A stretch of 64,000 nucleotides of DNA. Origin: Pseudomonas sp. S06B 330 (GTDB lineage Bacteria; Pseudomonadota; Gammaproteobacteria; Pseudomonadales; Pseudomonadaceae). Positions 4,712-41,546 of this stretch are shown one piece after another. Where the stretch lies: the NCBI RefSeq assembly GCF_002845275.2, contig NZ_CP088149.1:473501-537500 (forward strand). Reading direction: 5' to 3'. A program made the position numbers and the translations under genes. Positions within the stretch are counted from its first letter, which is position 1. Every line of letters starts with the position of its first letter. The notes beneath the pieces are model-generated. The model was not told the origin of the DNA, searched no databases, and worked only from the letters and a program-made list of their open reading frames with translations.

Positions 4712-5485
4712 TTAGCGGTTGCTGGACATGAATTGTTTACAACGCGCCGAGTTCGGGTTTTCAAAAACCTGCTGCGGCGTTCCCTGCTCTTCGACCAGCC
4801 CTTGGTGCAGGAAGATAACTTCGCTGGACACTTGGCGGGCGAAGCCCATTTCGTGCGTAACCAGTAGCATGGTACGGCCTTCTTCGGCGAGGGCGCGGAT
4901 AACGTTAAGCACTTCCTGGACCATTTCCGGATCCAGGGCCGAGGTCGGCTCGTCGAACAGTATGACCTTGGGTCTCATCGCCAGGGTGCGGGCAATGGCC
5001 GCACGCTGTTGCTGGCCACCGGACAATTCGGCCGGATAGCTGTGGCGCTTGTTGTGGATGCCGACCTTGTTGAGCAGCGCTTCGGCATGCTCGATGGCTT
5101 CGGCCTTGCTCTGACCCAGCACGCGGCGAGGGGCCTCGATGATGTTGTCGAGGATGCTCATGTGTGGCCACAGATTGAAATTCTGGAACACAAAGCCGAT
5201 CTCGCTGCGCAAGCGATTGATCTGCTTATTATCGGCAGCTACCAGCTCGCCGTTTTTCGCAGCCTTGAGCCGGAGTTCTTCACCGGCCACCAGGATCTGG
5301 CCCTGGTGCGGGTTTTCCAGCAGGTTGATGCAGCGCAGCAGGGTGGACTTGCCGGAGCCGGAGGATCCCAGGATCGAGATCACATCGCCATCGCGTGCGG
5401 TCAGCGAGATGCCCTTGAGGATCTCCTGGTCGCCGTAGCGTTTGTGCAGGTTGCGGATTTCCAGCGCGGGCGTGGCCTCAGCCAT
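4712..5485 (-). CDS. artP: Basic amino acid ABC transporter ATPase ArtP/HisP/AotP type
   Basis: This 257-residue ATPase has Walker [10 protein letters not shown] at 40-48, the ABC signature [16 protein letters not shown], Walker [16 protein letters not shown] and the H-loop TH. It powers the ArtQM permease from the cytoplasmic face. It is the first gene of the minus-strand operon and the binding-protein gene follows after 13 bases. Unlike my recollection of the P. aeruginosa aot operon, there is no argR-type regulator or aotO-like gene at the end. The promoter must lie in the 5486-5680 region. Confidence 0.87.
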
Positions 5486-35348: not shown

Positions 35349-37298
35349 ATGTTGAACACCCTGCTTCCCATCCTCCTGTTCGCCGCCTTGGGCCTTGCTG
35401 TCCTCGGCGCCTTGCGGCGCGTGCGGATGTGGCGTCAAGGTCGGCCATCCAAGGTCGACCTGCTTGGCGGCCTGTTGGCCATGCCACGGCGCTATATGGT
35501 CGACCTGCACCACGTGGTCGCCCGTGACAAATACATGGCCAACACTCACGTTGCTACCGCCGGTGGCTTTGTCCTGGCAGCGGTGCTGGCGATCCTGGTG
35601 CACGGTTTCGGCCTGCACAACAAGATCCTCGGCTATGCGTTGTTGTTCGCTACTGTATTGATGTTTGGTGGCGCACTGTTCGTCTACAAGCGTCGACTCA
35701 ACCCACCTTCGCGTCTGTCAAAAGGGCCGTGGATGCGCTTGCCGAAAAGCCTGTTGGTGTTCGCCGCAAGCTTCTTCATCGCGACCTTGCCAGTGGCCGG
35801 AATTCTGCCTGAAGGTTTTGGTGGTTGGCTGCTGGTCGCCTTGCTGGGCCTTGGCGTGCTCTGGGGGGTATCCGAATTGTTCTTCGGCATGACCTGGGGC
35901 GGGCCGATGAAGCACGCCTTTGCCGGTGCTCTGCACCTAGCCTGGCACCGCCGTGCCGAGCGTTTCGGCGGTGGGCGTTCGACTGGCCTCAAACCCATTG
36001 ATCTGGAAGACCCGCAAGCACTGCTGGGCGTGGAGAAACCCAAGGACTTCACCTGGAACCAGTTGCTCGGTTTTGACGCCTGTGTGCAATGCGGCAAGTG
36101 TGAAGCAGCGTGCCCAGCCTTTGCTGCCGGACAACCGCTGAACCCGAAAAAACTCATCCAGGACATGGTCGTTGGCCTGGCTGGCGGCACTGATGCCAAG
36201 TTTGCCGGCAGCCCTTACCCAGGCAAACCCATCGGCGAACATGGCGGCAATCCGCACCAACCGATCGTCAACGGCCTGGTCGATGCCGAAACCCTGTGGT
36301 CGTGCACCACCTGCCGCGCCTGCGTGGAGGAATGCCCGATGATGATCGAGCACGTCGATGCCATCGTCGACATGCGCCGTCACCTGACCCTGGAAAAAGG
36401 CGCCACGCCAAACAAAGGCGCTGAAGTGCTGGATAACCTGATCGCCACCGACAACCCAGGCGGCTTTGCCCCAGGTGGACGGATGAACTGGGCAGCCGAC
36501 CTTAACCTGAATCTGCTCAGCGACCTCAAAACCACCGACGTGCTGTTCTGGGTCGGTGACGGCGCCTTCGATATGCGTAATCAGCGCACCTTGCGCGCTT
36601 TCGTCAAAGTACTGAAAGCGGCCCAAGTGGACTTCGCCGTGCTCGGTCTGGAAGAGCGCGACAGTGGTGATGTGGCTCGTCGTTTGGGCGATGAAGCGAC
36701 CTTCCAGCAATTGGCCAAACGCAATATTCAGAGCATGGCCAAGTACAGCTTCAAGCGCATCGTCACTTGCGATCCGCACAGCTTCCATGTGCTCAAGAAC
36801 GAATACGGCGCCTTTGGCGGCGAGTACTTAGTGCAGCACCACAGCACCTACATCGCCGAATTGATCGCCGCGGGCGCGCTGAATCTTGGCCAGCATAAAG
36901 GTGGCAGCGTCACCTATCACGATCCCTGCTACCTGGGCCGTTACAACGGTGAATACGAAGCACCCCGGGAAGTCCTACGTGCCCTGGGCATTGAAGTGAA
37001 AGAGATGCAGCGTTCGGGCTTTCGCTCTCGCTGCTGCGGCGGTGGCGGCGGTGCGCCGATCACCGACATTCCTGGTAAGCAGCGGATTCCGGACATGCGT
37101 ATGGAGGACATCCGCGAGACTGCCGCCGAGCTGGTTGCAGTCGGTTGTCCGCAGTGCACGGCGATGCTCGAAGGCGTGGTTGAGCCACGGCCATTGATCA
37201 AGGATCTGGCCGAGTTGGTTGCCGATGCCCTGCTTGAAGAGCAGGCCCCAGCGAGCAAACCCGCACCTGCCAAGCGTGAACCTGCGGAGGTGCACTGA
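35349..37298 (+). CDS. dgcB: Dimethylglycine demethylase iron-sulfur subunit DgcB
   Basis: This 649-residue protein has three or four N-terminal membrane helices, two ferredoxin motifs (CVQCGKCEAACP near 245-256 and CTTCRACVEECP near 318-329), and two C-terminal CCG-type domains (HDPCYLGRYNG, RCCGGGGGAP, GCPQCTAML). This is the layout of membrane-bound heterodisulfide-reductase/GlpC-like electron carriers. It should link DgcA or ETF to the quinone pool. The stop overlaps the next start by one base (TGATG). Confidence 0.92.
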   Translation: MLNTLLPILLFAALGLAVLGALRRVRMWRQGRPSKVDLLGGLLAMPRRYMVDLHHVVARDKYMANTHVATAGGFVLAAVLAILVHGFGLHNKILGYALLFATVLMFGGALFVYKRRLNPPSRLSKGPWMRLPKSLLVFAASFFIATLPVAGILPEGFGGWLLVALLGLGVLWGVSELFFGMTWGGPMKHAFAGALHLAWHRRAERFGGGRSTGLKPIDLEDPQALLGVEKPKDFTWNQLLGFDACVQCGKCEAACPAFAAGQPLNPKKLIQDMVVGLAGGTDAKFAGSPYPGKPIGEHGGNPHQPIVNGLVDAETLWSCTTCRACVEECPMMIEHVDAIVDMRRHLTLEKGATPNKGAEVLDNLIATDNPGGFAPGGRMNWAADLNLNLLSDLKTTDVLFWVGDGAFDMRNQRTLRAFVKVLKAAQVDFAVLGLEERDSGDVARRLGDEATFQQLAKRNIQSMAKYSFKRIVTCDPHSFHVLKNEYGAFGGEYLVQHHSTYIAELIAAGALNLGQHKGGSVTYHDPCYLGRYNGEYEAPREVLRALGIEVKEMQRSGFRSRCCGGGGGAPITDIPGKQRIPDMRMEDIRETAAELVAVGCPQCTAMLEGVVEPRPLIKDLAELVADALLEEQAPASKPAPAKREPAEVH

Positions 37299-38521
37299 TG
37301 AGCGACATTATTCGCCGTGACCCACGCGCCGAGTGGATTGCCCGTAACCGCCTGCACCCGCTGCATGCGGCCATGCAGCAAACTCAGCAGCACAGCTGGA
37401 TGGGACCCAACGGCGTTGTGCGCAAGAACCCGCACGGGGTAGGTTTTATCGGCCCTAACGGCATCAAGCGTATTGACCGTAGCGGTGCCCAGCAGGGCAC
37501 CAGCAACAAGCGCAGTGCCGCTGCGGTGGTGGAATTACCGCTGCACCAAGTGCCACAACCGGCGTTCTACATTGCCGTGGTGCCGGACATGGTCGGCGGT
37601 CGCTTGGGCAGCCACGACCGTGATCTGCTGGGCCTGGCTCATAGTCTGGCCGGTAGTGACGGCGCGGTGTTGGCCGTGGTGTTTGGCGAGCACAAGGAAA
37701 ACAACTTTTCCAAAGCCGGTGTTGATCGCTTGCTGGTCATTGAGGGGGATGAGTTTGAAGGTTATGCACCGGAGCAACTGGTGCAGGGGCTGCGTGCTGT
37801 GGATAACCAGTTCAACCCGCGCCACTGGCTGCTGCCCGACAGTCGCACCGGCGGCGGCGAATTGGGGCGGCGTTTTGCTGCGGCGCTCGGCGAGCGTCCA
37901 GCGACCAGGGTATGGCAAGTCAAGGATGGACAATGCAGTGGTCGCGCTGGCGCTGGGCAGCAAGACCTCATTCGTGGCTTGCCACGCTTGATTCTGGCCG
38001 CAGCCGAATGTGCCGAGCCGGTCAGCGAAACCCGCCATGAAGCCTTGCCTGAACAGTTATCCACAAGCGTCGCGCGCAGCCTGCCACGTATTGAAGACCT
38101 CGGTCCGGTCGCTGTCGACCCGGCAGCCATCGCCATGGCCGAAGCTGAATTTATTGTATCTGGCGGTAACGGCGTCAAGGATTGGGACCTGTTCCACCGC
38201 GCCACCCTTGTCCTCGGTGCCACTGAGGGCGCATCGCGGGTGGCTGTGGATGACGGCTTCATGCCGCGCAACCGTCAGGTCGGCGCCACTGGAACCTGGG
38301 TTACGGCTCGGGTCTATCTCGCTGTGGGTATCTCAGGGGCGATCCAGCACCTGCAGGGCATTGGCGCCTGCGACAAAGTGGTGGCGATCAACATGGACCC
38401 GGGCTGCGACATGATCAAACGTGCCGATTTGTCGGTAATCGGTGACAGTGCGGCGATTCTGCAGGCGCTGATCGAGGCTGTGGAAAACTATCGCAACGAC
38501 GCCAAGCGCGATGCGGCATAA
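37298..38521 (+). CDS. Electron transfer flavoprotein alpha-like subunit (FixB family)
   Basis: This 407-residue ETF alpha-type protein is longer than the usual 310 residues, with about 75 extra N-terminal residues (DPRAEWIARNRLHPLHAAMQ and a Gly-rich stretch). The C-terminal FAD domain is clear: VSGGNGVKDWDLF, QVGATGTWVTARVYLAVGISGAIQHLQGIGACDKVVAIN and a closing AdlsViGD-like segment. It carries electrons from the methylamine-type dehydrogenases of this cluster. Two perfect DnaA-box 9-mers lie inside it (37798 and 38057). The beta subunit gene follows after 14 bases. Confidence 0.88.
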   Translation: MSDIIRRDPRAEWIARNRLHPLHAAMQQTQQHSWMGPNGVVRKNPHGVGFIGPNGIKRIDRSGAQQGTSNKRSAAAVVELPLHQVPQPAFYIAVVPDMVGGRLGSHDRDLLGLAHSLAGSDGAVLAVVFGEHKENNFSKAGVDRLLVIEGDEFEGYAPEQLVQGLRAVDNQFNPRHWLLPDSRTGGGELGRRFAAALGERPATRVWQVKDGQCSGRAGAGQQDLIRGLPRLILAAAECAEPVSETRHEALPEQLSTSVARSLPRIEDLGPVAVDPAAIAMAEAEFIVSGGNGVKDWDLFHRATLVLGATEGASRVAVDDGFMPRNRQVGATGTWVTARVYLAVGISGAIQHLQGIGACDKVVAINMDPGCDMIKRADLSVIGDSAAILQALIEAVENYRNDAKRDAA

Positions 38522-38535
38522 GGGCAGGGGCAATT

Positions 38536-39306
38536 ATGAACACCAAGGTCATCAGTCTGGTTTCAATCGGTGCCCATCCTAGCTCTGGCCGCAGCCGGCG
38601 TGCCGAACAGGATGCACGGGCGGTGGAGTTGGGCTTGCAGCTGGCTGGGGATAACTTGCAGGTATTGCATGCTGGCGATCCACAGGAGCCGGCCTTGCGC
38701 GCCTATCTGGGCATGGGCCTGGAGCAGTTGGATGTGCTTGAACAGCCTCAAGGGGCTGATGCCCTGGGCGTGCTTGGTGATTACCTGCGTGAAGCCGGTG
38801 CACAGCTGGTACTGGCGGGAAGCCAGGCCGAAACCGGCGAGGGTTCGGGCATGCTGCCGTTTCTACTGGCCGAACGTCTGGGCTGGCCGCTGGTGGTGGG
38901 GCTGGCGGAAGTGGAATCTATCGACAATGGCGTAGCCCAGGTGCTGCAAGCGTTGCCACGGGGTCAGCGACGTCGGCTCAAGGTGCGCTTGCCGTTACTG
39001 GCGACTGTGGATAACGCGGCGCCCAAGCCGCGGCAAAGCGCTTTCGGTCCTGCGCGCCGCGGTGTCTTGGCCGCGCGCCAGGTAGAGATCGTCGAAGACG
39101 AGTTGTTCACAGGCGCCGAACTGCAGCCAGCCAAGCCTCGGCCCAAGCGTTTGAAGGTGATCAAGGCCAAAAGCGGTGCCGACCGTATGAAAGCAGCCAC
39201 CGCCAAGGCCAGCGGCGGCGGTGGACAAGTGCTCAAGGACGTGAGCCCGCAGGCGGGTGCTGAAGCCATCCTCAAGTTGCTGGTGGAAGAGGGCGTGCTG
39301 CGCTGA
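38536..39306 (+). CDS. Electron transfer flavoprotein beta-like subunit (FixA family)
   Basis: This 256-residue ETF beta-type protein has LVSIGAHPSSGRSRRAEQDARAVELGLQLAGD at its start and the AMP-site-like LVLAGSQAETGEGSGMLPFLLAERLGWPLVVGL. The C-terminal 70 residues are Lys/Pro/Ala rich and may wrap the partner. It should dimerise with the preceding alpha-like subunit as the electron carrier for DgcAB. A perfect DnaA-box 9-mer is at 39006-39014. After its stop comes the DnaA-box repeat region, which shows no obvious terminator. Confidence 0.87.
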   Translation: MNTKVISLVSIGAHPSSGRSRRAEQDARAVELGLQLAGDNLQVLHAGDPQEPALRAYLGMGLEQLDVLEQPQGADALGVLGDYLREAGAQLVLAGSQAETGEGSGMLPFLLAERLGWPLVVGLAEVESIDNGVAQVLQALPRGQRRRLKVRLPLLATVDNAAPKPRQSAFGPARRGVLAARQVEIVEDELFTGAELQPAKPRPKRLKVIKAKSGADRMKAATAKASGGGGQVLKDVSPQAGAEAILKLLVEEGVLR

Positions 39307-39310
39307 ACAG

Positions 39311-39825
39311 TTGCTCACAAAGTCTGTTGGCCGATCTGTGGATAAAGTGTTTGTGTATGGCTGGAGGGCACGCATTGCGTGCCCTTCGGCGTTATGGTTA
39401 AAAAATGACCAGTCTAAGTCACGGATTTTTCGGGGTTTTCTTCTCGGGAAGACGATGACTTTGCCCACAATCGCTGTTGGCGGCTCTGTGGATAATATGT
39501 TCGCCTATGGCTGAGAGGCCCGCACAGCAAGGGCTGCACAGGTTTGATCAAAAAACATCCAATAACTGCTTTTACGTCGGTTACAGCCCGGTTTTTCGGT
39601 CGTTCGAAGCGTTATCCACATTACTTTTGGTGGTCCATGACTTTTGCACACAAAGTCTGTTGGCCTCTCTGTGGATAAGGTGTTCGCCTTCTTCTGTAAG
39701 CCTCGTATTTAAAGGCCTATAGAGATTTGATCAAATAATGATCAATATTTTTGTGTGGCAAAAACAATGACTTGCCCACATTAGCTGTGGGTTGTCCTGT
39801 GGATAAAGTGTTTGCTGTATGGAAG
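39311..39825. repeat. Four-copy direct repeat, each with a perfect DnaA box
   Basis: Each unit begins TTGC(C/T/A)CACA, continues with (T/G)CTGT-rich DNA and, 26 bases from its start, contains the perfect 9-mer TGTGGATAA (39337, 39487, 39670, 39798), then (A/G/T)(A/G/T)TGTT(T/C)G and usually TATGGCTG. A fifth box in the opposite orientation, TTATCCACA, is at 39612. Copies 2-4 are preceded by ATGACTT. TTGCCCACA itself is a two-mismatch DnaA box in inverted orientation to the perfect one, so each unit presents a pair. TTATCCACA is the strong DnaA-binding 9-mer in gammaproteobacteria. Confidence 0.85.
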
Positions 39826-39874
39826 GGGCCAGTGGGGCCGGGGGATTGCGCAGGGTGGCTAAAATTCGTACAGG

Positions 39875-39952
39875 CTGCTGGCAAGGCCCGCTCCCACAAG
39901 GTGCTTGAGGTACACACAGAACCTGTGGGAGCGGGACTTGCCGGCGATAGGC
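39875..39952. repeat. REP palindrome pair
   Basis: GCTGGCAAGGCCCGCTCCCACAAGG and CCTGTGGGAGCGGGACTTGCCGGCGATAGG are inverted copies of the CTGTGGGAGC family. It lies just downstream of the gbcA stop (minus strand) and separates it from the DnaA-box repeats. Confidence 0.85.
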
Positions 39953-39969
39953 CGCGCAGCGGCCCTGCT

Positions 39970-41262
39970 TTACTGCGCTGCGACCCCCTTGAGATAAGGT
40001 GCTGGCGCCGCGCCAAGATTGCTCAACACCCGCTCGCTATACCAATCAACAAAGTTCACTACCCCAAACTCATAGGTTTTGGAGTACGGCCCCGGCTGGT
40101 AAGCAGTAGAGTTGATCCCGCGTTGGTTCTCTTCGGCCAGGCGCCGGTCCTGGTCGTTGGTGGCGTCCCAGACCTGACGCATGCGTGCCGGATCGTAATC
40201 GACCCCTTCAACCGCATCCTTATGCACCAGCCACTTGGTGGTCACCATGGTTTCCTGGGCGCTGATCGGCCACACGGTGAAGACGATGATGTGATCGCCC
40301 ATGCAGTGGTTCCAGGAGTGTGGGAGGTGCAGGATGCGCATCGAGCCCAGGTCCGGGTTCTTGATCCGCCCCATCAGCTTCTGGCAGCCCTGCTTGCCGT
40401 CCAGGGTCATTGACACCGTGCCCTTGAGCAATGGCATGCGCACAATACGGTTACGCAGGCCGAAGCTGGCGTGTGCGTACGGAATCTTCTCGGCGTCCCA
40501 GGCTGCAGCCGAGGCGGCCACATGGTCTTTGAATGCCTGGTCGGCCCGTGGGTCGGTGACGTCATCCCACTCCAGCAGAGTTTTCAACAGCTCCGGGTGT
40601 GAACCGCTGCAGTGGTAGCACTCACGGTTGTTTTCCAGCACCAGTTTCCAGTTGGCCTTTTCCATCAAGGTGGTTTGCACCGCCACCTTGGTGTTTTCCA
40701 TGTCGTAGGGCTCCATGTAGTGCGTCAGGGTAGCCAGGAAGTCATCAATCGCAGGTGGGTTCTCGGCCAGGCTGATGAAGATGTAGCCGCCGGCGGTCTT
40801 GACGTTTACAGGCTTGAGCCCGTACTGCTTCATGTCGAAGTCAGCGCCCATCTCGGTGCCAGCAAACAACAGGCGGCCATCGAGCTCGTAGGTCCATTGG
40901 TGGTAGTGGCAGACCAGCTTGGCGACTTTACCTTTGTCGCTGGTGCACAAGCGTGAGCCACGGTGACGACAGACGTTATGGAAGGCATGCACCTGACCTT
41001 CAGCACCGCGCACTACCAGGATCGGGTTCTTGCCGATCTGCAGGGTGAGAAAGTTGCCCTTGGTCGGGATTTCACAGGTCATCCCAGCGATCAGCCATTC
41101 CTTCTGGAAGATTTCTTCCATGTCGATCTGGAACAGGCGCTCGTCGCAATAGAACGGCTGTGGCAGCGAGAAGGTTCGCTCGCGGCTCTGCAGCATCTCG
41201 GCAGTCGCCTTGCGCGCAGGTTCCAGTGGATCGCCCAGACTCAAAGTTGCGGTGACGTCCAT
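39970..41262 (-). CDS. gbcA: Glycine betaine monooxygenase, oxygenase component GbcA
   Basis: This 430-residue Rieske-type oxygenase has the 2Fe-2S ligands C98, H100, C118 and H121 (CRHRGSRLC...CHYH) and the mononuclear iron site around NNRECYHCSGSH (H217, H222). It oxidises a methyl group of glycine betaine, giving dimethylglycine and formaldehyde, with electrons from GbcB. I prefer the ATG at 41262 because AGGA lies 9 bases upstream and the length fits the P. aeruginosa protein as I recall it; two in-frame ATGs at 41277 and 41283 lack this signal. It is divergent from gbcB. Confidence 0.93.
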   Translation of the reverse strand: MDVTATLSLGDPLEPARKATAEMLQSRERTFSLPQPFYCDERLFQIDMEEIFQKEWLIAGMTCEIPTKGNFLTLQIGKNPILVVRGAEGQVHAFHNVCRHRGSRLCTSDKGKVAKLVCHYHQWTYELDGRLLFAGTEMGADFDMKQYGLKPVNVKTAGGYIFISLAENPPAIDDFLATLTHYMEPYDMENTKVAVQTTLMEKANWKLVLENNRECYHCSGSHPELLKTLLEWDDVTDPRADQAFKDHVAASAAAWDAEKIPYAHASFGLRNRIVRMPLLKGTVSMTLDGKQGCQKLMGRIKNPDLGSMRILHLPHSWNHCMGDHIIVFTVWPISAQETMVTTKWLVHKDAVEGVDYDPARMRQVWDATNDQDRRLAEENQRGINSTAYQPGPYSKTYEFGVVNFVDWYSERVLSNLGAAPAPYLKGVAAQ

Positions 41263-41546
41263 CGTGTAGGTCCTCATGGCCATTGCTATGGCCGGTGAAA
41301 GTGGCTAATCGTTGTTATGGCGACGCAAGGCTAAATACAGCAGGATCATTTGCGATGGAGTGTGCGATTGAAGTGTTCGTGAACCATATCCATGGGCGAC
41401 ATGATCAGATCCGTTTCCGACGCGCCAGCCCTTGTGGCAGGGGGCTGGTCGCGATAAGCACGCCGATGTCGCGGATAGGAAAGTGTTTGCCGTTCAGCTT
41501 GCGCAGAATCGCAGCCATCAGGCCACAGTCGGCCGTGGAGACGAGC
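41263..41546. promoter_or_regulatory. Divergent gbcA-gbcB control region with direct repeats
   Basis: This 284-base region must drive both genes. GTCGCGATAAG at 41448 and GTCGCGGATAGG at 41468 are direct repeats 20 bases apart, sharing the GTCG(C/T)(A/G) core of the cbcX repeats at 22160 and 22181. They start about 100 bases before gbcB. GGAG about 10 bases before 41547 is the gbcB ribosome-binding site. GbdR is the expected activator; the site assignment is inferred. Confidence 0.45.

Follow-up and report, generated by a model that had tools for sequence, protein, structure and literature searches.

Putative Fis-linked DARS-type cassettes in a tandem array between etfB and gbcA of Pseudomonas

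Background

What role could a dense cluster of DnaA boxes play between two converging genes, etfB and gbcA, away from the replication origin of Pseudomonas sp. S06B 330? The question is raised by a stretch of 64,000 nucleotides (hereafter, the window), which covers bases 473501-537500 of the single contig of 5,637,435 bases that represents this genome. A sequence-only reading of the window had drawn attention to eight perfect DnaA boxes, TTATCCACA or its complement TGTGGATAA, and had proposed a locus of DnaA titration or replication control, possibly a counterpart of datA of Escherichia coli, or else a second site of initiation, of segregation or of gene control. All eight boxes are present, at positions 37798, 38057, 39006, 39337, 39487, 39612, 39670 and 39798 of the window; five are located in the 663-base noncoding gap between etfB and gbcA (39307-39969, as delimited by open reading frames, NCBIfam names and the boxes in relatives) and three within the electron transfer flavoprotein (ETF) genes. 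Analysis of this gap revealed four copies of a unit in which three DnaA box-like sites in a fixed arrangement are followed by a palindrome matching the consensus of the DNA-binding protein Fis, together with one solo box. We propose that the gap is probably a tandem array of four Fis-linked cassettes of the DARS (DnaA-reactivating sequence) type. In E. coli, ATP-DnaA is regenerated from ADP-DnaA by two such elements, DARS1 and DARS2.

The densest cluster of DnaA boxes in the genome

Apart from the eight boxes of the cluster, the window contains three perfect boxes (1225, 2191 and 49692), and the resulting 11 per 64 kb compare with a mean of 0.18 in dinucleotide-preserving shuffles, none of 100 of which reached 11. 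Across the whole genome (5.64 Mb), there are 127 perfect boxes as opposed to 16 occurrences of the same word read backwards, and 111 of the 127 lie within 1 Mb of oriC, where 45 would be expected under a uniform distribution. With all 127 boxes placed, the richest 2-kb window of the genome is the etfB-gbcA locus, with eight boxes, followed by three windows with five boxes each, at 839.9 kb, at oriC (152.3 kb) and at 147 kb; thus, in the genome-wide sliding-window count that had been suggested as a check, the locus ranks above oriC rather than after it. The origin itself is marked by the boxes at 152.3-152.6 kb that precede dnaA, in which the DnaA domain starts at 153.1 kb. The approximately 9 kb around dnaA (G000:C1:144565-153869; L096) hold 15 perfect boxes and many with one mismatch; four of the 15 belong to oriC, one is inside dnaA, and 10 are located before oriC, at 144.5-149.6 kb.

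An ordered unit of three box-like sites and a Fis consensus

Four of the five boxes in the gap had been described as parts of a diverged direct repeat, each with a degenerate inverted box 26 bases away, and both features are borne out by the alignment of the repeats: there are four copies of 44 nucleotides, three of which share 77-82% identity with the reference copy, and the inverted box is found in all four units, as TTGCCCACA in two and as TTGCTCACA or TTGCACACA in the others. Each copy consists of TTGCNCACA, a spacer of 17 bases and TGTGGATAA, and these 17 bases accommodate one more box-like site, so that the core of the unit comprises box I on the forward strand at 0, box II on the reverse strand at +14 and box III, also on the reverse strand, at +26. 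In the first core (39311-39345, forward strand; profile score 79.2 bits), box I is TTGCTCACA (39311, +, three mismatches to TTATCCACA), box II is TGTTGGCCG (39325, -, five mismatches) and box III is the perfect TGTGGATAA (39337, -). The second core (39461-39495, +; 78.6 bits) combines box I TTGCCCACA (39461, two mismatches) and box II TGTTGGCGG (39475, -, five) with the perfect box III TGTGGATAA (39487, -); the third (39644-39678, +; 87.6 bits) combines TTGCACACA (39644, three) and TGTTGGCCT (39658, -, five) with TGTGGATAA (39670, -, perfect); and the fourth (39772-39806, +; 50.2 bits) combines TTGCCCACA (39772, two) and TGTGGGTTG (39786, -, three) with TGTGGATAA (39798, -, perfect). Thus, box III is perfect in all four units, whereas box I deviates from the consensus at two or three positions.

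The pattern TTGCNCACA/spacer/TGTGGATAA, with the spacer allowed to vary from 13 to 21 bases, occurs at six places in the genome, four in the gap and two at 5.095 Mb, and the spacer is 17 bases in every case; the backward control of this pattern yields no match in the genome. A looser pattern that specifies the boxes only, TTNNNCNCA, retrieves nine units, again with no match for the backward control, and the three additional units are located at 573 kb, 840 kb and 5.209 Mb.

A conserved block downstream of the core was seen by eye in the aligned units of relatives, and the Fis consensus was tried on the units after that. It was searched in the form GNNYRNNWNNYRNNC, which we take to represent the Fis site. 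Excerpts of PMC8682772, like those of the other papers cited below by their PMC numbers, are our source here, and print the consensus as GnnYAnnnnnTRnnC. In all four units of the array, a perfect match begins 59 bases from the start of box III, at 39396-39410 (GGTTAAAAAATGACC), 39546-39560 (GATCAAAAAACATCC), 39729-39743 (GATCAAATAATGATC) and 39857-39871 (GGCTAAAATTCGTAC). The five other units of the genome that were picked by their boxes have it at the same offset, perfect in four and with one mismatch in the unit at 5095232. The gaps of 80 relatives together with the window contain 221 perfect reverse boxes, 194 of which have the unit form, that is, TT at -26 and TGT at -12; these come from 63 loci, namely, the window and 62 of the 80 relatives. 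The Fis consensus accompanies 190 of these 194 boxes, at +59 in 162 cases and at +60 in 28, compared with a mean of 1.35 per offset over 370 offsets. A relative of Fis is encoded in the genome (62% over 63 amino acids, in an alignment that ends at the edge of the stretch), as is a second DnaA-domain protein, with an open frame of 253 amino acids, which we take to be Hda by its size.

Between the core and the Fis site lies a conserved dyad, CTGNAGGCC...GGCNTNCAG, which occupies 39361-39389 of the window in the first unit and the equivalent position, +24 to +52 relative to box III, in the others. Its arms pair in 64.1% of the cells compared with 30-44% when they are slid, and further pair types number 29 versus 22.3, above all 500 shuffles, which shows the dyad itself to be genuine. 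An RNA stem was considered for this element and set aside: RNAalifold predicts no pair, and 127 and 60 of 500 shuffles reach its percentage paired and its covariation score, respectively. Because the dyad is distinct when slid, yet its covariation score falls within the range of the shuffles, it is perhaps a third protein-binding site.

Further matches were noted elsewhere in the genome. A weak match to the cassette at 1145-1236 of the window (reverse strand; E 0.0008) lacks box I; it consists of two reverse boxes, TGTGGATAA and TGTGGGAAA, at a distance of 12 bases, and carries the Fis consensus at +59 with one mismatch. The single cassette at G000:C1:840850-840884 (L090) overlaps the last bases at the 3' end of a gene of the histone deacetylase family, upstream of a gene for an HI0933-like flavoprotein. 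Two profile matches are found at each of the loci G000:C1:5209369-5209834 and 573368-573574, and boxes I and II are decayed in the copy at 573368.

Conservation and spread of the cassettes

The etfB locus was compared in the best 80 of 391 confirmed named loci, nearly all from Pseudomonas. Units are present downstream of etfB in 62 of the 80, and the stretch after etfB contains at least three perfect boxes in 58 and at least one in 64; in several loci, the boxes are retained despite other genes in between. The boxes within the ETF genes are conserved as well: the one at 37798-37806 in etfA (reverse strand; codons GCT GTG GAT AAC) is perfect in 75 of the 80 loci, the one at 38057-38065 in etfA (forward strand; codons TTA TCC ACA) in 46, and the one at 39006-39014 in etfB (reverse strand; codons ACT GTG GAT AAC) in 54. 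The box at 38057 includes TTA, a rare codon that accounts for 2.2% of the leucine codons in the ETF genes. These boxes inside the ETF genes are conserved as DNA sequences. Cassettes 2 and 3 flank the solo perfect box TTATCCACA (39612-39620, forward strand), found by the box scan; some of the relatives likewise have a perfect forward box in the gap. Accordingly, the conservation in relatives on which the sequence-only reading had made its proposal depend is seen in Pseudomonas for the boxes, those of the ETF genes included, and for their geometry. Of the conditions named there as refuting the proposal, neither an ordinary box density nor a lack of box conservation was observed. Four loci (L027, L042, L043 and L046) contain no perfect box anywhere, the ETF genes included, as if the role of the locus had been lost at once.

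Of 149 genomes of the genus, 136 contain the core pattern, and the 149 together gave a single match for its backward control. For wider searches, 38 units were used to build R1, a profile of the 110-base unit based on sequence alone. The 30 units from relatives in this alignment were chosen for the Fis consensus at +59, so the presence of Fis sites in R1 matches is not independent evidence; the independent tests are those of the 194 unit-form boxes, of the array, of the five box-picked units of the genome and of the distant matches aligned over the core only, reported below. Within Pseudomonadaceae, R1 at E<=0.01 detects the cassette in 145 of 148 genomes, with all 19 of the 19 genera represented; the three misses come from a single genus, g13, which has one weak match only (E 0.0096). 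With the threshold set to E<=1e-4, matches were obtained in 89 of 194 genomes of the order, 79 of 274 of the class and 31 of 299 of the phylum, 11 of the latter outside the class, in samples that overlap, with strict filters and rough E-values.

Weaker matches that share the geometry extend far beyond the family. We examined 40 distant matches (20 strong ones, the complete set of 11 from beyond the class, and a further nine), with the register set within a few columns such that box mismatches were minimized. Box II is perfect in 32 of these and has at most one mismatch in 36; boxes I and III have at most one mismatch in 31 each. That the boxes of the distant matches surpass those of the query is nothing for which the profile would select. 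The Fis consensus, which is partly selected by the profile, is located at +59 in 20 of the 40 and at +60 in 13.

Chromosomal position and copy number

In the genome of Pseudomonas sp. S06B 330, the cassettes, about a dozen (11 at E<=1e-4), are located at approximately +360, +420, +688, -581 and -695 kb from dnaA, that is, on both arms and at most 0.7 Mb from oriC. In 14 single-contig genomes of Pseudomonadaceae, the number of copies ranges from 3 to 27, and the half of the chromosome centered on the origin holds 154 of 156 placed cassettes (156 of 178 matches could be placed, with genome sizes rounded). The two placed cassettes outside the origin half, G252:C1:5632994 and G215:C1:3375555, are 3.3 and 2.6 Mb from dnaA, respectively. 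A tandem run of at least nine cassettes with a period of about 204 bases is found in a genome of genus g12 (G252:C1:2210839-2212570), 28-30 kb from dnaA, and three genomes of this genus that were searched singly gave 23-27 matches each.

Neighboring genes and other sequence features

The array is preceded by etfA (37298-38521, forward strand; NF051845, 703 bits) and etfB (38536-39306, forward strand; NF051844, 421 bits), which encode the alpha and beta subunits of electron transfer flavoprotein, respectively, and is followed by gbcA (39970-41283, reverse strand; NF058607, 808 bits), the gene for the oxygenase subunit of glycine betaine monooxygenase, all named by NCBIfam. Since etfB is encoded on the forward strand and gbcA on the reverse strand, the gap separates two 3' ends. 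Its GC content is 50%, compared with 59% for the window. A scan of 39200-40100 yields two terminator-like matches (1.3 in shuffles, standard deviation 1.4), one of which is a 14-pair hairpin in unit 1. The only match in an Rfam scan of 37200-41300 was a ZTP riboswitch inside etfB below threshold (28.5 versus 39 bits; E 0.067), and it was rejected as due to chance.

Comparison with DARS and datA of E. coli

The core positions of the E. coli elements, read from the sequence, are 1108/1122/1134 in the DARS1 locus (L084) and 5136/5150/5162 in the DARS2 locus (L085), so that the offsets of 0, 14 and 26 and the orientations of the three boxes are identical to those of the cassette cores. An alternative DARS2 core at 5452/5466/5478 was dropped because the sites IBS1 and IBS2 for integration host factor (IHF) are described as lying 3 bp apart between core and Fis site (PMC4245941), which fits positions 5229 and 5245. 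The spacing of the boxes is common to DARS1 and DARS2, with box I opposing boxes II and III (PMC5742627); the head-to-head pair of boxes I and II is called essential in E. coli by one review (PMC10380432), and a head-to-head interaction of DnaA has been described (PMC8682772). The activity of DARS2 requires both Fis and IHF (PMC4245941) and, as in the cassettes, its Fis site is on the side of box III.

The cassettes differ from DARS2 in that they come in four copies in the array and 11 in the genome (E<=1e-4), compared with a single copy in E. coli, in that the strong box is III rather than II, in that IBS1-2 lie between core and Fis site in E. coli whereas the cassettes have no conserved IHF consensus there, and in their gene neighbors (DARS2 is upstream of mutH). 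DARS1, between bioD and uvrB, is likewise a single copy with other neighbors. In terms of orthology, we found neither profile relatedness nor common gene neighbors with DARS1 or DARS2. Because the spacing of the Fis site, the IHF sites, the number of copies and the strength of the boxes all differ, and because the profile gives no match in the E. coli loci examined, we describe the cassettes as a variant rather than as DARS1 or DARS2; the lack of a conserved IHF consensus between core and Fis site in particular precludes filing them under DARS2. The third element, datA, whose place in the E. coli locus we assumed in agreement with the boxes seen there, resembles the array in being a cluster of DnaA boxes between genes that belongs to the origin region but is distant from oriC itself. 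It relies on IHF and mainly on head-to-tail contacts of DnaA (PMC5742627), in contrast to the cassettes with their conserved head-to-head box and without a conserved IHF consensus.

Conservation of DARS2 has been documented in relatives of E. coli out to Vibrio and Shewanella (PMC8682772), and according to one review, DARS-like sequences are conserved in many proteobacteria (PMC10380432). The excerpted text of a review of oriC mentions Pseudomonas only with respect to oriC and the sequence of the box (PMC4285127). In the literature on Pseudomonas, judged mainly by titles and with most subscription journals outside the coverage, none of the titles listed concerns such a locus.

Alternative explanations

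Several observations weigh against the identification of the array with DARS-type cassettes. The IHF consensus, which DARS2 needs, occurs in at most two of the 194 units at any single offset in either direction; the closest match within the gap deviates at one position, and six of the 40 distant matches have their best reverse IHF match at +50, with one or two mismatches. With default filters, R1 matches none of the E. coli DARS1, DARS2, datA and oriC loci at E<=1 (the oriC of the Pseudomonas genome itself gives a partial, weak match, E 0.1). In the range from +20 to +160, the sole perfect Fis consensus of DARS2 is at +119, not at +59, and DARS1 has none. Box II, a member of the pair called essential in E. 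coli, is poor in the array, with 5, 5, 5 and 3 of nine positions mismatched, and the strong box is III. Among 10 distant matches aligned over the core only, with the register again set to minimize box mismatches, just three have a perfect Fis consensus at +59/60, and five have it within one mismatch. Outside the family, the copies are confined to the origin half in one of four genomes, so that this bias is shown for Pseudomonadaceae alone. The distance of the locus from oriC, 0.36 Mb, is nearer to that of E. coli datA (0.47 Mb) than to those of DARS2 (0.96 Mb) and DARS1 (1.5 Mb). Finally, 16 of the 80 loci lack a perfect box in the scored stretch, and seven of these have gbcA; in the other nine, gbcA was not found nearby, and at most 700 bases were scored.

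How, then, do the other explanations fare? Passive titration, whereby boxes near the origin would soak up DnaA and the unit form would merely be good at holding several DnaA molecules, agrees with the crowding of 111 of the 127 perfect boxes within 1 Mb of oriC, with a similar crowding in E. coli (PMC12371093) and with the conservation of the coding boxes as single sites. However, titration requires neither the exact spacing of 14 and 26 nor a Fis site at +59/60, and that site is kept with 190 of the 194 unit-form boxes and at unrelated loci of the genome; part of the boxes here, unlike the origin-proximal excess of E. coli, belong to a fixed Fis-linked cassette. We therefore regard titration as the sole role as unlikely, whereas titration by the perfect boxes may act in addition and is compatible with a DARS role. 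A site of the datA kind, which would gather ATP-DnaA, promote its hydrolysis and lower initiation, is suggested by the rank of the locus as the densest box cluster of the genome, by its similar distance from oriC and by the two reverse, head-to-tail boxes in each unit. It seems rather improbable given that datA needs IHF, for which the units show no conserved consensus, and that the excerpts of PMC10380432 and PMC5742627 do not name a conserved head-to-head box I or a fixed Fis site among the features of datA; the combination of a head-to-head unit and a Fis site at constant spacing resembles DARS. Thus, of the proposals made from the window alone, a replication-control locus built of paired DnaA sites is well supported by the conserved boxes and geometry and by the crowding of copies around oriC, and the datA analog fits poorly.

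Control of transcription of etfAB or gbcA by DnaA, or else a structured RNA or terminator, would account for the pairing of the dyad, which exceeds the slid controls and, in pair types, all 500 shuffles, and for the two terminator-like matches, including the hairpin in unit 1. It is nevertheless very unlikely: the genes converge on the gap, in which there are no sigma-70-like promoter matches, and this tells against the gene-control site that had also been suggested; as for RNA, the gap has no Rfam match at E<=1, and the dyad failed as a stem by all three measures given above. A role as a second origin of replication or in segregation, to which the box density, higher than that of oriC, might point, appears extremely improbable, given that the unit recurs at five places in the genome and repeatedly in relatives and that an oriC with its own boxes is present next to dnaA at 152.3 kb.

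Proposed mechanism and implications

The preferred reading, in which the tandem array consists of Fis-linked cassettes of the DARS type, starts from features that were observed directly, namely, the geometry, the Fis consensus, the conservation, the origin-proximal placement within the family and the fis gene. By analogy with the E. coli elements, we infer that DnaA and Fis occupy the cassettes and that nucleotide exchange takes place there. Under this scenario, ADP-DnaA would assemble head-to-head on boxes I and II, assisted by box III; Fis would occupy the site fixed 59 bp past the start of box III and bend the DNA there; and the resulting complex, as in DARS1 and DARS2, would eject ADP from inactive ADP-DnaA, whereupon ATP would rebind. 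Initiation capacity would then be raised when Fis is abundant, in growing cells, and the dosage of the cassettes would rise soon after each initiation because, on either arm, they lie no more than 0.7 Mb away from oriC.

A broader and more tentative proposal, possible in our estimation but somewhat short of probable, is that Pseudomonadaceae set initiation by dispersed, multi-copy, Fis-linked DnaA-reactivation cassettes in place of two DARS loci. Under this proposal, the compact form, with the core and a Fis site at 59-60 bp, would be widespread in Pseudomonadota, and E. coli DARS1, without Fis, and DARS2, with IHF inserted and Fis moved out, would be derived.

The DNA profile R1 could serve for the annotation of these cassettes in other genomes. 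If the interpretation is correct, control of the DARS type would extend far beyond the relatives of E. coli in which it has been documented, copy number and distance from the origin may be tuned variables, and Fis, a growth-phase signal, would be wired to the recharging of DnaA at a fixed spacing. The proposed identification of the array as Fis-linked DARS-type cassettes suggests a layer of control over the timing of chromosome copying in these bacteria.

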